From Bdellovibrionales bacterium (GTDB lineage: Bacteria > Bdellovibrionota > Bdellovibrionia > Bdellovibrionales > UBA1609), in the NCBI GenBank assembly GCA_028819305.1, contig JAPPLY010000004.1, forward strand, positions 1 to 40,915: a stretch of 40,915 nt of DNA, read 5' to 3'. Numbering within the stretch: the first letter of the stretch is position 1; each line of letters starts with the position of its first letter. Position numbers and translations under genes: made by a program. This document shows positions 6,941 to 12,328 of this stretch, in pieces. Below the pieces are notes generated by a model. The model was not told the DNA's origin. It made no database searches and saw only the letters and a program-made list of their open reading frames with translations.

Positions 6941-8020
6941 TTAAAGAACTATAATCAGACCTTGGAGTAAAACCACTGTAGCCATAAAAGCATACCTAAC
7001 AAAGATGGGAATTTCCCATCTTCTTATTTTTCCTTTTACTAATAAATAAGTACAGAAGATGTAAAGCAGTGTAGGAATAAAACTGAGGAGGTCATTATAT
7101 AAGATTAAATAAACAAGGGATAAAAGAGCCAGGAGAAGACATAAACTAGAGAGGAAAAAACCCAAAGGTAAGCTTAAGTCACCTGTGGCAAACAAATTCA
7201 GTTTAGCTCTCTTTTTTCTATCTCGATCGGCATACACCATACTAAAGAATACATGAAAGGCCGTAGCTAAAAAATTAAAATGCACTGTGGAAAAGGCTAA
7301 AGTAAAAAATAAATTGTGAAAAGAATAGGAAATAGAAACAAAAGCAGATAGAAAAACAGGTAGTATAAAAATAAGACAATTTAAAAACCATAAAGGAAAC
7401 CCTAATGTGTAGGCAAAGAGAGTAGGGTTTAGCTCTTTTTTTAAAAACCACCTATGAACCTTTACTTTTTTAGATAAGAATAAAGTGAAAACAGAGGGAT
7501 TAACTAAAATAAAGTGATGAGTGTAAGGAGCTATTTTAAGATCGGCCAGGGAGTTACCAGCATAGTCAAAGTTTTTTTCTCCGTATTTTTCAACAAGAAA
7601 GAGAGCTTTTTTCTTTCCTACTAGGTTTTTCCCTAATGTAGATCCCCAAGCAGAATCAAAAAAGCCAGTCCTTTTTTTTATTTTGTCAGCGTAGGTTTGT
7701 GTGGAGCCTGTGCATAAAACCAACTCCCGCCCTCGCTCTTTTTCCTCTTTTAGGTAATTTATAAAATCTTTTGATAAAGGCAGGGCTTCTAAAGAAAAAC
7801 AGGCTCGTTTTTCCAGTTCCAACTTAAAATATCCAGCCTTTTTTATTTTTATTTTTCTAATTATGATTTTTATCAACTCAATAGGGTGCCATACTAAAAC
7901 AGATAAAAAGGATTCCCACGGAAGATCCGTTTTTATAAGGGTGCCATCCAGATCTACTACTAAAGGCTTGCTTATTGGTGGTTTTTCTTCTTTTTTTGCT
8001 ATTGCTTCTGCTTCATTCAA
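6941..8020 (-). CDS. HAD-like phosphatase fused to UbiA-like membrane domain
   Basis: This 359-residue protein joins two domains. Residues about 19-175 are HAD-like: motif I DLDGTL (23-28), Thr104 in LCTGS as motif II, and GNSLADLK (155-162) as motif IV. Residues about 195-359 contain six to seven hydrophobic segments, with ADRDRKKRAKL and FATGDLSLPLG where UbiA prenyltransferases have their first Asp-rich loop. The fusion is a known family (HAD plus UbiA, related to decaprenyl-phosphate phosphoribosyltransferase-like proteins). The usual NDxxD part of the first loop reads HVFFS here, so only the last Asp is kept. Prenyl-transfer activity is therefore uncertain. It may act on an isoprenoid lipid at the inner membrane, which is an inference. 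Confidence 0.7.
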   Translation of the reverse strand: MNEAEAIAKKEEKPPISKPLVVDLDGTLIKTDLPWESFLSVLVWHPIELIKIIIRKIKIKKAGYFKLELEKRACFSLEALPLSKDFINYLKEEKERGRELVLCTGSTQTYADKIKKRTGFFDSAWGSTLGKNLVGKKKALFLVEKYGEKNFDYAGNSLADLKIAPYTHHFILVNPSVFTLFLSKKVKVHRWFLKKELNPTLFAYTLGFPLWFLNCLIFILPVFLSAFVSISYSFHNLFFTLAFSTVHFNFLATAFHVFFSMVYADRDRKKRAKLNLFATGDLSLPLGFFLSSLCLLLALLSLVYLILYNDLLSFIPTLLYIFCTYLLVKGKIRRWEIPIFVRYAFMATVVLLQGLIIVL

Positions 8021-8283
8021 TGTGTCTTCTCCTTAAAACAGTTTTTACTTGAATATTCCTGTTTTTATAAGCTTTCGGCAAGAGAAAACAGGTACGAGAT
8101 TTTTAGAATAGGCTTATCCAAACCTCGGTTTTTCCATGACATCTTATGCTAAAAATCCTCCAATTAACAAGACTTAAGGCGTATTTATAAGCATATACTA
8201 TATTTCTAAGTATTTAATTTATCATTTAATTTTATAATTTTTTACAAAGGATTTTTTTTAAATGGTATCAGGAGAGATACTCA

Positions 8284-9132
8284 GTGGATTTTTTACATCA
8301 AGATATATCATCAAGATTAGACGAAAAGAAGATAGCTAAAACTAGAGCAAATGATCTTAGTGGAAAAGAATGGTTAAAAAATTCTGTATCTATATGGAGT
8401 GATTTATCTAAGGATAATGAAGAAAGAAAGATGAATCATCCAGCTATATTTCCTTGGAAATTAGCCTATAAAATTATAGAAACATTTACTGATCACACTA
8501 GAAAAAATATATTAGATCCCTTTTTAGGGTCAGGTTCCACTTTAATTGCTTGTCATAAACTTAATAAAAACGGTATAGGTTTTGATATTAATAAGGAGTA
8601 TATATCCCTTTCAAAAAAACGTATAAAAGATATATCTGCATCAAGTAAAAATAACCCACATATTAAATTGATAAAAAGTACGGCTCTTAATATTAGAAGA
8701 TACCTACCCGATGATACGATTGATTTATGTTTTACCAGTCCTCCTTATTGGGATATATTAAGTCAAAAAAGAACAGTGGATGGAAAGAGTAAAAAAGAAT
8801 ATTCATTTTCGAGAGAAAATATAGGGTTAGTTGCTTCTTATGAAGAATATTTATTAATAATGAAAAATATATTTCGTGAGATATTCAAAGTGATGAAACC
8901 GAACTCCTATTGTATAATAAATGTAATGGACTTGAGGAAAAAGAATGTTTTTTACCCGCTACATATGAATATTACAGATGCTTTAACATCAATAGGTTAT
9001 ATTTTAGATGATATAATTATATGGGATAGGAAACAAGATTATAACAATTTACGTCCATTGGGATATCCTTATGTTTTTAGAGTGAATAAAATTCATGAAT
9101 TTTTACTTATATTTAAAAAATGTCAGAATTAA
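8284..9132 (+). CDS. DNA methyltransferase (SPPY type, probably N4-cytosine)
   Basis: This 282-residue AdoMet-dependent DNA amino-methyltransferase starts at GTG 8284, with AGGAG ten bases upstream. Motif X-like HPAIFPWKLAYKII is at about 52-65, motif I DPFLGSGST at 78-86 (AdoMet site), motif II GFDINKEYI at 99-107, and catalytic motif IV TSPPYW at 151-156. The SPPY form is typical of N4-cytosine enzymes, though some N6-adenine enzymes have it, so the base modified is a likely call only. The X-I-IV order leaves the target-recognition part in the C-terminal half. It is the first gene of a tight cassette: its end overlaps the next gene by 13 bases. Codon use is visibly more AT-rich than in the flanking genes, which suggests horizontal transfer. 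Confidence 0.9.
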   Translation: MDFLHQDISSRLDEKKIAKTRANDLSGKEWLKNSVSIWSDLSKDNEERKMNHPAIFPWKLAYKIIETFTDHTRKNILDPFLGSGSTLIACHKLNKNGIGFDINKEYISLSKKRIKDISASSKNNPHIKLIKSTALNIRRYLPDDTIDLCFTSPPYWDILSQKRTVDGKSKKEYSFSRENIGLVASYEEYLLIMKNIFREIFKVMKPNSYCIINVMDLRKKNVFYPLHMNITDALTSIGYILDDIIIWDRKQDYNNLRPLGYPYVFRVNKIHEFLLIFKKCQN

Positions 9133-10007
9133 ACCAACCTGAGCTTGCTTACTTTCTTGGACTCTGTATTACCAGGGGCTATTTTTCTGATTCTAAAATA
9201 ATTGTAAATTTTAGCTATAAAAAGCGCTCGTTCAATTTACCTCCAAATTGTTTATCTGCTAATCTATCAAAAAAAGATCGTGAGTACACCATTGATGGAA
9301 TAAGAGTCACTGAATTATTAAAAGGATATTTACAAACGGAAATTATAACAAATCGAGATGACCAAAGATATTCTATGACTGTAGTAATCCCACAAGGAAG
9401 TATGGTATCACAAACTTTAAACAGTATTCTTGGCCCTCTGGAGTCTTTTAGTTATAAGACTACAAATATCCCTGATGTTATTTGGAACTCTTCAATTGAT
9501 ATACAAAAATATTTTATAAGAGGAGTAGCTGATTCTTGTTCTATTCCTACTTATGGAGATAGAGATCAGAATAATCAGACAAGAATTTGTATAGACATTC
9601 CATTTGAAAACTGGAATCTACCTGTAAGTATATGTAAATTACTACAAGAAAAATTAAGTATTCCGGTAGCTAATATATTATGGGGACATCCAAACCTAAG
9701 AACTCCAAGTCAACCTGAATCTCGTAGTTGGTCTAAAGAACACAGAGTTAGACTATTTTCAACAGAGTTTGCACAAATAGGTTTTGGCTTTGAGTTCAAA
9801 CAACAAATTCTAGAATATTTTATTTCCTTTGAAAATGATAAAAGAAAATCGTCAATATTTTGTTGGCCAAATAAAAAATACAATAATAGAAAACGAGAAA
9901 AACATCTTGACGAAAGTAGCGATAAAATACCTTTAAAAGCTAGAAAACATGTTTGTAACTTCCGGGAAGTGTGTTTGTCTATGGGGTGTGAACAAAAAGA
10001 GAGATGA
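9120..10007 (+). CDS. LAGLIDADG-fold-like protein lacking catalytic acids
   Basis: This 295-residue protein shows two degenerate LAGLIDADG-type helices: YFLGLCITRGYF at about 11-22 and YFIRGVADSCSIP at about 131-143. In active homing endonucleases an Asp or Glu fills the eighth motif position. Here these positions align with Arg19 and Cys140, so DNA cleavage by this protein is unlikely. The C-terminal part (about 246-292) has Cys248, His277, Cys279, Cys285 and Cys290, a possible metal site. It overlaps the methyltransferase gene by 13 bases and the nuclease gene by 4 (ATGA), so the three are probably translated together. I infer a DNA-recognition role for the neighbouring nuclease. No exact family name can be given from sequence alone. 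Confidence 0.6.
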   Translation: MSELNQPELAYFLGLCITRGYFSDSKIIVNFSYKKRSFNLPPNCLSANLSKKDREYTIDGIRVTELLKGYLQTEIITNRDDQRYSMTVVIPQGSMVSQTLNSILGPLESFSYKTTNIPDVIWNSSIDIQKYFIRGVADSCSIPTYGDRDQNNQTRICIDIPFENWNLPVSICKLLQEKLSIPVANILWGHPNLRTPSQPESRSWSKEHRVRLFSTEFAQIGFGFEFKQQILEYFISFENDKRKSSIFCWPNKKYNNRKREKHLDESSDKIPLKARKHVCNFREVCLSMGCEQKER

Positions 10008-10507
10008 AAGAATCTACATTATATTTGCCAGTTAAAAACTGGATAAATAATTATCTAAAAAGAAATTTGAAAACTCAGAAGGTTAAAACCTATATAGGAG
10101 CTGACGAATTTATTAGTAAAATTTTAATTAGGGAAAATTTGTATGATAAAATTATAAATTCTCACTATTTCAATATAAAAATTGATGTATTTTCTGTTGT
10201 TATTAAAGATGATAAAGCAGAGTTAGTTCTTATAGAGTGTAAGAGTACTCGATTAGGTTTAATTCATCTTAGTCAATTAATAGGGTATTCACGTATCATA
10301 AATCCTCTATGTTCAATTTTATTAAGTCCGGAGGAAATCACTACTGGATTAAAAAATTTCTTGAATAACCAAGGCCATAGTTTATTGAATTATGGAAATA
10401 ATAGAAAAATAGTTATTGCAAAGTGGATAGCGAGTAGAGGTGAAATAGACATTATAAATTGTTTGCCTAAAGGATATTTATCTCCTTCAAAAATGTCAAT
10501 TTGGTGA
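10004..10507 (+). CDS. Small PD-(D/E)XK nuclease, probable restriction subunit
   Basis: This 167-residue protein has the core of the PD-(D/E)XK nuclease fold: Asp61 (KIDVFSVV), then Glu78-x-Lys80 in ELVLIECKS, then Gln91 in QLIGYSRI, which fits the Gln-x3-Tyr element after the core in many such enzymes. The N-terminal ESTLYLPVKNWI resembles the leading helix of related restriction-like proteins. At 167 residues there is little room for a separate DNA-recognition domain, which fits a partner providing specificity. Its ATG overlaps the stop of the LAGLIDADG-like gene (ATGA at 10004-10007). The end overlaps a convergent small gene by 12 bases. Cleavage of DNA unprotected by the neighbouring methyltransferase is an inference from context. 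Confidence 0.75.
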   Translation: MKESTLYLPVKNWINNYLKRNLKTQKVKTYIGADEFISKILIRENLYDKIINSHYFNIKIDVFSVVIKDDKAELVLIECKSTRLGLIHLSQLIGYSRIINPLCSILLSPEEITTGLKNFLNNQGHSLLNYGNNRKIVIAKWIASRGEIDIINCLPKGYLSPSKMSIW

Positions 10508-10702
10508 TATATCTGGAGAATGCAGTAATGGTTTATGTTGCTTATTAGAAGATTTGTTTTTAAGAGCGAATTGCAAAAATTCATCAGCATTTGTAAATGT
10601 GTCAAAACATTCCGCATGAACAGGATAAGGTTTAAATTCTGGAGCTAATAAGCTATATTCTTCGGATTCGACAATATTTTTACAAACTATGCATTTTTTC
10701 AT
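10496..10702 (-). CDS. Small zinc-finger-like protein
   Basis: This 68-residue protein carries Cys4-x2-Cys7 (CIVC) and His29-x2-Cys32 (HAEC), a spacing that fits a small treble-clef or LIM-like zinc site. The rest is polar and the C-terminal tail looks disordered. The ATG at 10702 is preceded by AAGAGG nine bases upstream, which supports real translation. It runs convergently into the nuclease gene with a 12-base overlap. It could be a cargo or control gene of the restriction-like cassette, or an unrelated host gene at its edge. I do not recognise the family. Confidence 0.5.
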   Translation of the reverse strand: MKKCIVCKNIVESEEYSLLAPEFKPYPVHAECFDTFTNADEFLQFALKNKSSNKQHKPLLHSPDISPN

Positions 10703-10791
10703 TTACTTACCTCTTTATAAGGAGTTTAATACCAACAAAGAATTTGAGTGTAAAGATTTGAGTATGGAAACCGATCTATAATGCGCTGTAT

Positions 10792-10822
10792 AAAATCTCC
10801 TATAGACTGAGAGGATAGGAGA
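10792..10822 (-). terminator. Probable terminator of tolB
   Basis: TCTCCTAT (10796-10803) and ATAGGAGA (10815-10822) form a perfect eight-base stem with an 11-base loop. Read on the minus strand it is followed by TTTTA. It lies about 90 bases past the tolB stop, at the edge of the restriction-like cassette. The T run is short, so strength is uncertain. Confidence 0.5.
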
Positions 10823-10912
10823 AGCTCACCTACTATTTCCCCTTTTCATGGTTGTTGGGGTAGTATATGTCCTTAAAAGAATATGATTCATAGTGACGGA
10901 AGGGGTTTATTT

Positions 10913-12328
10913 TTACTTTAGCAAAGGCGACCACTTTGGGCTTTTGTAATTATGTATATCAGTAGTAATGCGTGTTGTACGGAAGTTCAGTAAGTTCATA
11001 ATATATAATTGATTTTGACCGGTACGGTTGCTGGTAAAAACAATATGCCGACCATCCGGCGCAAAAGAAGGAGATTCATTGTTAGCCCACTTGCCGTTTG
11101 GTTTTTGAAAACTGGTCAGCCTACGTAGGTTAGAACCATCTGGACTCATAATAAAAATGTCAAAGCGTCCATTTGAAAAACCGGAAAATACCACCTCTTT
11201 TCCATCTGGTGAGTAGTCAGGTGTGGAGTTATAGGAACCATGCCAGGTGACAGGGCGTATGTTTTTTCCGTTCATATCCATAGAGTAAATCATTATTTTA
11301 CCTCCACGATCAGAAGAAAATAAAATGTTTTTCCCTTTAGGATGAGCTACCGGTTCTACATTAATGGATCTGTTTGGCCCAAAAGTAATAGCTTTGATAG
11401 AGCCATCCTTAAGTGACATCTTGGCGATGTCCATATAACCCCTTCCTAAAAAGAGAGAGAGCAAAATATGTTTCCCTCCTGGTAGAAAGTCCGATCCTAA
11501 ATGGGCTCCCTCTTTTTTGGAAATAATCTGACGGGTCTTAGTAGAACGATCATATAAGAGAAGAGAGGCATTTCTTCTTTTTTTACTTTTTCGATATAAA
11601 AAAGAGGTGTAGGCTATGTAGCGGCCATCATTGGACCAACTGGGTGATAACACAGTGGAGTTATGATAAGAAATTTGTTTTTTATTTTTTCCGTTCCAGT
11701 TCATAATAAAGAGTTCTTTTTTACTACCAGTCATAGTTCGTACAGCTACAATTTTTGTTAGAAAGATCCCTGGCTTTTTCGTCAGTGCGGCAATAATGTC
11801 ATTACATATTTTATGAGATAATTTTTCCACCAGTTTCTGGTCGGCTATATATTTTTTTTGAAACACCTTTCGTTTTAAAGGAACATGGTAAAGATAAAGA
11901 TGGAGGTGTATTGTGTTTTCTTCAAAGGAGTATCTGCTCAGAACCAGGTAATCTGCTTTTAAAAGCTGCCAGTTTTTCCATATAAAACCGTCGGGATCTT
12001 CGGGGTAAGGTTCTAATTTTTTCTCCCCAGGTTTTTCCAGGAAAGCTTCTTGTTCAATCAGTTTAAAATAACTGGAAGAAGATAAGTTATCTTTTATGAT
12101 GGTAAAAATCGTAGCTCCTGCTTCTAAAGCAGGTTGAGAAGAGGGGCCAGATAGCACTAAGGGTTGAATAGCCATTTGGCTCTCTCTTATATAAGCTTTT
12201 CCTACATCAATGGAAACATAGGCTTTTGTAAAGACGGGGCAGACAATGACAAAAATGGTAATCCACACAGAAAAAACATTTTGCAAATATCTTGTTTTAT
12301 ATTTTAATAGGTTAAACTTTAATATCAT
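10913..12328 (-). CDS. tolB: TolB-like periplasmic beta-propeller protein
   Basis: This 471-residue exported protein belongs to the Tol-Pal system, which links the inner and outer membranes and supports envelope constriction at division. A hydrophobic segment near residues 18-36 fits a signal peptide after a basic N-terminus. The N-terminal TolB domain (about 40-160) precedes five PD40 propeller blades with SP-W/Y/F-DG motifs: SPSWSNDGRYIAYTS, GSDFLPGGKHILLS, EPVAHPKGKNILFSS, TPDYSPDGKEVVFSG and SPSFAPDGRHIVFTS. Length is typical or slightly long. It lies downstream of a TonB/TolA-like gene on the same strand, 366 bases away. No pal, tolQ or tolR gene is adjacent. Confidence 0.92.
   Translation of the reverse strand: MILKFNLLKYKTRYLQNVFSVWITIFVIVCPVFTKAYVSIDVGKAYIRESQMAIQPLVLSGPSSQPALEAGATIFTIIKDNLSSSSYFKLIEQEAFLEKPGEKKLEPYPEDPDGFIWKNWQLLKADYLVLSRYSFEENTIHLHLYLYHVPLKRKVFQKKYIADQKLVEKLSHKICNDIIAALTKKPGIFLTKIVAVRTMTGSKKELFIMNWNGKNKKQISYHNSTVLSPSWSNDGRYIAYTSFLYRKSKKRRNASLLLYDRSTKTRQIISKKEGAHLGSDFLPGGKHILLSLFLGRGYMDIAKMSLKDGSIKAITFGPNRSINVEPVAHPKGKNILFSSDRGGKIMIYSMDMNGKNIRPVTWHGSYNSTPDYSPDGKEVVFSGFSNGRFDIFIMSPDGSNLRRLTSFQKPNGKWANNESPSFAPDGRHIVFTSNRTGQNQLYIMNLLNFRTTRITTDIHNYKSPKWSPLLK

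Follow-up and report, generated by a model that had tools for sequence, protein, structure and literature searches.

In the Type IIT restriction enzymes BtsI, BsrDI and BspD6I, a large reading subunit is associated with a small subunit that has no specificity of its own, and the asymmetric site is served by two methyltransferases, separate or fused (PMC2909958, PMC4081073). In systems with asymmetric sites, each strand requires its own methyltransferase (PMC4081073). The large subunit of the Type IIT enzymes possesses its own PD-(D/E)XK site (P57, D58 and E72 in BtsIB), and in BtsI and BsrDI this subunit combines site reading with cleavage of one strand, the other strand being cut by the smaller subunit (PMC2909958, PMC4081073). 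Specificity and cleavage are also on separate chains in Type I systems, which have distinct S, M and R subunits. The LAGLIDADG fold is that of homing endonucleases such as I-DmoI and I-SceI, and it is found again, without nuclease function and serving another task, in WhiA/DUF199 (PMC3781837). A 2014 survey of Type II enzymes presents PD-(D/E)XK, HNH and GIY-YIG classes, and the word LAGLIDADG is absent from it (PMC4081073). No natural restriction enzyme using this fold for recognition was found described in the open-access literature.

The locus studied here belongs to a Bdellovibrionales bacterium and lies in a window of 40,915 nucleotides, i.e., the whole stretch of DNA that was analysed. 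It comprises three complete genes of the + strand: a DNA methyltransferase gene of the beta type, with an SPPYW motif (8284-9132, GTG start, 282 aa), the gene of a middle protein with a two-repeat LAGLIDADG fold devoid of catalytic acids, proposed as the DNA-reading subunit (9120-10007, 295 aa), and a PD-(D/E)XK-type nuclease gene, proposed to encode the cutting subunit (10004-10507, 167 aa). The coordinates, the strand and the overlaps of 13 and 4 bp given by the first-pass annotation are all exact. Its description of a three-part cassette holds, with two additions: most relatives possess two methyltransferases, and a fourth gene, a conserved mini-gene, occurs in the subtype of the window. 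As in Type II systems, a DNA methyltransferase gene adjoins a nuclease gene and, judged by this neighbourhood, the cassette is a restriction-modification system. We propose that it is probably a mobile, Type II-like one, whose restriction enzyme is split into a dead LAGLIDADG reader and a PD-(D/E)XK cutter; the hypothesis of the first-pass annotation, a homing-endonuclease fold recruited for specificity, is thereby supported.

The inserted segment (8037-10910) lies between two host genes of the - strand, a HAD-family gene (6941-8020) and tolB (10913-12328). In two congeners, these genes are only 25 and 91 bp apart and the cassette is absent, the homology with the window stopping at about 8036 and resuming at about 10911. 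These empty sites reveal an insertion of the cassette between the two host genes, in agreement with the transfer initially suspected from its base composition. The cassette is indeed more AT-rich than its flanks, with a GC content of 28.9% vs 35.4% for the whole window, and the lowest value of any cassette-length stretch outside the insert is 30.7%. Further copies are carried by plasmids of 6-9 kb and by phages. Plasmids, phages and empty site together show that it is mobile.

The distribution of the pair formed by the middle and nuclease genes was followed by scanning about 85,000 species genomes, the best 80 of 110 relatives being examined as further loci, and by searching proteins (plasmids, phages) and IMG/VR. 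The pair is present in at least about ninety loci, spread over many bacteria and phages that are unrelated to one another, including two L. plantarum plasmids and two gut phages. The L. plantarum version of NZ_CP060181 consists of a fused methyltransferase, WP_220639322 and WP_253735072. According to record titles, the hosts include Bacillota, Bacteroidota, spirochaetes, Gastranaerophilales, Desulfobulbaceae, Saccharibacteria, Synergistaceae and Candidatus Ruminimicrobiellum, although some of these labels may be binning errors, as many loci are on MAG contigs. A weak match in one further genome (G150, locus L002) was rejected as due to chance.

The homologues are not scattered apart from each other. 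The nuclease gene is directly 3' of the middle gene in 87 of 88 loci, typically with an overlap of 11 bp, the same adjacency is seen beyond these 88 in L101 and L123, and on viral contigs every nuclease match adjoins a middle gene. Furthermore, the pairwise distances of the middle protein and of the nuclease are correlated (r=0.83, exceeding all 2000 permutations; r=0.71 without the window). In the sole exception, L063, the nuclease has been lost from behind the middle gene, and in L035 it is split into two ORFs. The methyltransferases are kept in both damaged loci, as would be expected if a nuclease left without them were harmful. In three loci (L107-L109), related methyltransferases are present and the pair is absent.

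The middle protein has no confident match to a curated family (Pfam, NCBIfam, PADLOC, PHROGs), and PDB sequence searches, with single proteins as well as with 46-member profiles, gave nothing meaningful; its fold identity thus rests on structure comparison. The alignments used for AlphaFold2 held 44 relatives, without rows from phage and plasmid collections, and the model of the middle protein reaches a pTM of 0.83, residues 36-59 being poor. In a Foldseek comparison with the PDB, the best matches of this model are I-DmoI (E=2e-5) and WhiA (E=2.7e-5); I-Tsp061I, E-DreI and inteins are matched as well, all with a probability of 1.00. Among viral models, it matches homing endonucleases and inteins. 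TM-scores are moderate (0.3-0.7) and identities low (8-18%) in these matches, which point to the two-repeat LAGLIDADG fold originally proposed rather than to an unrelated one.

Both LAGLIDADG acids are replaced in the 47 sequences examined (47/47, window and L123 included), as had been noticed for the window. The first position is occupied by R19 (codon 9174-9176, + strand) and the second by C140 (codon 9537-9539, + strand); L123 has the same R and C, and the aligned relatives have N and T, in 45/45 cases each. The window has LGLCITRG at the end of the first helix, where relatives typically have LGMILGNG, and its second helix reads RGVADSCS, against RGIADVTG in relatives. Compared with homing endonucleases, the middle protein thus shares the fold, but it lacks both catalytic acids, lies outside any intron or intein and has fixed nuclease and methyltransferase partners. 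The most conserved region of its sheet is the C-terminal hairpin (0.82 vs 0.45-0.55 for the N-terminal hairpins), and H190, N192, R194, E207, H208 and E216 are invariant (HPN..R, W.KEH).

These invariant residues could be taken to indicate that the middle protein cuts one strand itself, by means of a new active site, the nuclease cutting the other strand as in BtsI and BsrDI. They nevertheless belong to a hairpin through which LAGLIDADG proteins touch DNA, where they would suit reading as well as cutting. As both LAGLIDADG acids are gone and no BtsIB-like D...(D/E)xK pattern was seen in the middle protein, we consider this arrangement unlikely. Compared by description with the Type IIT enzymes, whose large subunit has a PD-(D/E)XK site, the cassette has a large subunit with a LAGLIDADG fold without acids. 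Its only recognisable catalytic site is the PD-(D/E)XK site of the small subunit, and the middle protein may have a new one.

The model of the small subunit has a mean pLDDT of 92.5, and its Foldseek matches are AF1548 (E=3e-4), NucS, BamHI and MspJI. The residues initially pointed out, D61, E78, K80 and Q91, are invariant in the alignment of 46 sequences, the segment from D61 to E78-x-K80 corresponding to 10184-10243 (+ strand). With a core fold carrying D...(D/E)xK, as judged from predicted structure and alignment, the protein belongs to the PD-(D/E)XK superfamily. Its fold and D...ExK...Q arrangement are like those of the C-terminal domain of NucS, AF1548 and Mrr-like nucleases, but its sequence matches remain below all curated cut-offs and it has no NucS N-terminal domain. 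It has no confident match to Pfam, NCBIfam, PADLOC or PHROG models, the best match to a REase_II model being obtained in one of 46 members only (E=0.002).

It had been argued that a nuclease of 167 residues has little room to read a site. This argument is weak, as R.PvuII, with 157 residues, reads 6 bp unaided. A better argument against a self-reading nuclease comes from the relatives, whose two different methyltransferases imply an asymmetric site. In all the main-family loci that are uncut by a contig end (82/82), two methyltransferase domains, one adenine and one cytosine, are located upstream of the pair, fused or separate depending on the locus. An EcoRI-methylase-type adenine enzyme is combined with a C5 enzyme in 62 loci, an Eco57I/TaqI-like adenine enzyme with an SPPYW enzyme like that of the window in 14, and an Eco57I/TaqI-like adenine enzyme with a C5 enzyme in 6; loci with fewer methyltransferases end at a contig edge, the window excepted. 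The methyltransferases are thus exchanged class for class, with an adenine and a cytosine enzyme each time. Since one enzyme of each kind is present, the recognition site of the relatives is probably asymmetric. Of the two methyltransferases or methyltransferase domains expected of a Type IIT system, 82 relatives have both and the window has only one. Furthermore, the target-recognition region of the C5 enzymes does not vary more than their other parts, within or between methyltransferase groups. Together with the conserved C-terminal hairpin of the middle protein, this suggests, without proving it, that many members may read the same or a similar site; no published methylome giving the motif was found in the literature search.

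The methyltransferase of the window is complete, as announced, with a match to PF01555 (N6_N4_Mtase, E=8e-35) and both DPFLGSGST and TSPPYW. The SPPYW motif is usual in N4-cytosine methyltransferases, and the enzyme is N4-cytosine-like by motif. It is 46-49% identical to the methyltransferases adjoining the pair in L007 and L008. An AGGAGA (8270-8275) ends 8 bases upstream of its GTG start. It is worth mentioning that this ribosome-binding site lies in the loop of a short inverted repeat, GTATC-AGGAGA-GATAC (8265-8280), which could possibly exert a translational control but could also be due to chance.

Another explanation would be that restriction is due to the nuclease alone and that the middle protein regulates the expression of the cassette in a WhiA-like manner. 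WhiA is among its best fold matches, small nucleases can read a site unaided, as seen above, and controller proteins exist in some restriction-modification systems. None of the 46 middle-protein members, however, has an HTH or WhiA family match, and the neighbours of the middle gene are methyltransferases and a nuclease. This gene almost always precedes and overlaps that of the nuclease, in a nearly constant order, while upstream methyltransferases and gene spacing vary. Finally, a small homodimer would fit a palindrome and not the asymmetric site suggested by two methyltransferases. We thus regard a regulatory role as improbable, slightly more so than the new active site considered above. Least probable of all is a selfish or phage-encoded module acting by addiction or exclusion of competitors and not primarily in host defence: its plasmid and phage copies and its insertion in the window's lineage would fit, but 80 of the 87 fetched copies are in bacterial genome contigs, some of which may be prophage, and the biochemistry would be the same, with only another beneficiary.

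The split enzyme is thus the reading that we favour. From sequences and models, we infer that the middle protein and the nuclease form a physical complex, that the former reads DNA and that cleavage follows. The beta-sheet saddle of the LAGLIDADG fold would bind the recognition sequence, and the middle protein would recruit or orient at the site the PD-(D/E)XK subunit of 160-170 residues, which belongs to a fold group often without specificity of its own and would cut unmodified DNA. A double-strand break made by one type of cutter could involve two copies of it or two complexes. In most relatives, the adenine and the cytosine methyltransferase would each protect one strand of the asymmetric site, and in the window's subtype the single SPPYW-type enzyme would protect. 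Several points count against this scheme: the nuclease could read DNA itself, the window has only one methyltransferase, and known LAGLIDADG proteins read long sites, of about 14-22 bp, whereas the site of a restriction-modification system is necessarily short.

Beyond the window, we lean, a little more cautiously, towards a widespread and undescribed class of restriction enzymes, in which a dead homing-endonuclease fold would be the specificity subunit and a separate minimal PD-(D/E)XK protein the cutter, with adenine and cytosine methyltransferases being exchanged while the reader-cutter pair stays constant. Compared with Type I systems, the cassette has no helicase/translocase motor, its reader is not a TRD-repeat HsdS and its methyltransferases are of stand-alone Type II kinds. 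No description of the reader-nuclease arrangement was found in the open-access literature, preprints being outside the scope, and no model of Pfam, NCBIfam, PHROG or PADLOC describes the pair. Two literature candidates were set aside: MhoVII of Mycoplasma hominis (PMC12898733), which is one 524-residue nuclease, and BsaXI (PMC11997821), where LAGLIDADG is mentioned as a comparison only. Few DNA readers have been engineered as much as LAGLIDADG proteins. If our proposal is true, a system in which reading and cutting are naturally kept on two chains would serve as a ready-made template for splitting specificity from cleavage, and would reveal a path from a selfish homing gene to a defence part. 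An unannotated gene pair in at least about ninety loci becomes testable at once.

The window represents a divergent subtype, its middle protein and nuclease being 20-27% and 25-32% identical, respectively, to those of the main family. When 369 genomes from the phylum were searched with the methyltransferase profile, one close relative was obtained, L123, in a genome (G352) belonging to another family of the same order, with identities of 58% (methyltransferase), 44% (middle protein) and 52% (nuclease); viral and plasmid searches gave no further member. L123 shares the 13-bp overlap between methyltransferase and middle genes. Behind its nuclease gene it also has a convergent CxxC...HxxC mini-gene, 53% identical over 43 residues to that of the window (10496-10702, - strand, 68 aa). 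As this mini-gene was not found near main-family loci, it is probably a fourth part of the window's subtype. Intact frames at 44-58% identity, on contigs of 35% and 50% GC, argue against a decaying relic. In the window, the next gene upstream of the single methyltransferase is a host gene; the contig of L123 ends directly upstream of its methyltransferase, so that a second one is possible there. The window's genome (G000, about 2 Mb, 93% complete) contains many modification systems, as judged from 18 matches to the N6_N4_Mtase family. It gave no match to the EcoRI-type adenine methyltransferase and, for the Eco57I/TaqI-like one, only a 28%-identical partial match, which is no clear partner. 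The lone methyltransferase may protect a single strand, act on a palindromic site or be aided by another of the many methyltransferases of the genome.

Roughly a third of relatives have, next to the pair, small unannotated proteins of two related families (about 115 aa and 150-160 aa), which are absent from the window (e.g., L007 5199-5648, L008 6374-6823, L065 4497-4985 and L066 3105-3452). A version of about 355 aa occupies the same position in L068, L070, L072, L074, L084, L085 and L103, and in L103 this protein has a C-terminal NOV_C (DUF3883-like) domain in which an ExK motif is present, and it may be a second nuclease. On the viral contig L107 (723-5043), two methyltransferases (627 and 280 aa) are followed by a 530-aa protein of unknown type, possibly constituting another uncharacterised restriction system. 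Finally, in L038 and L011, a second, unrelated C5 methyltransferase gene is located 4-5 kb or less from the cassette, which suggests a defence-island context.
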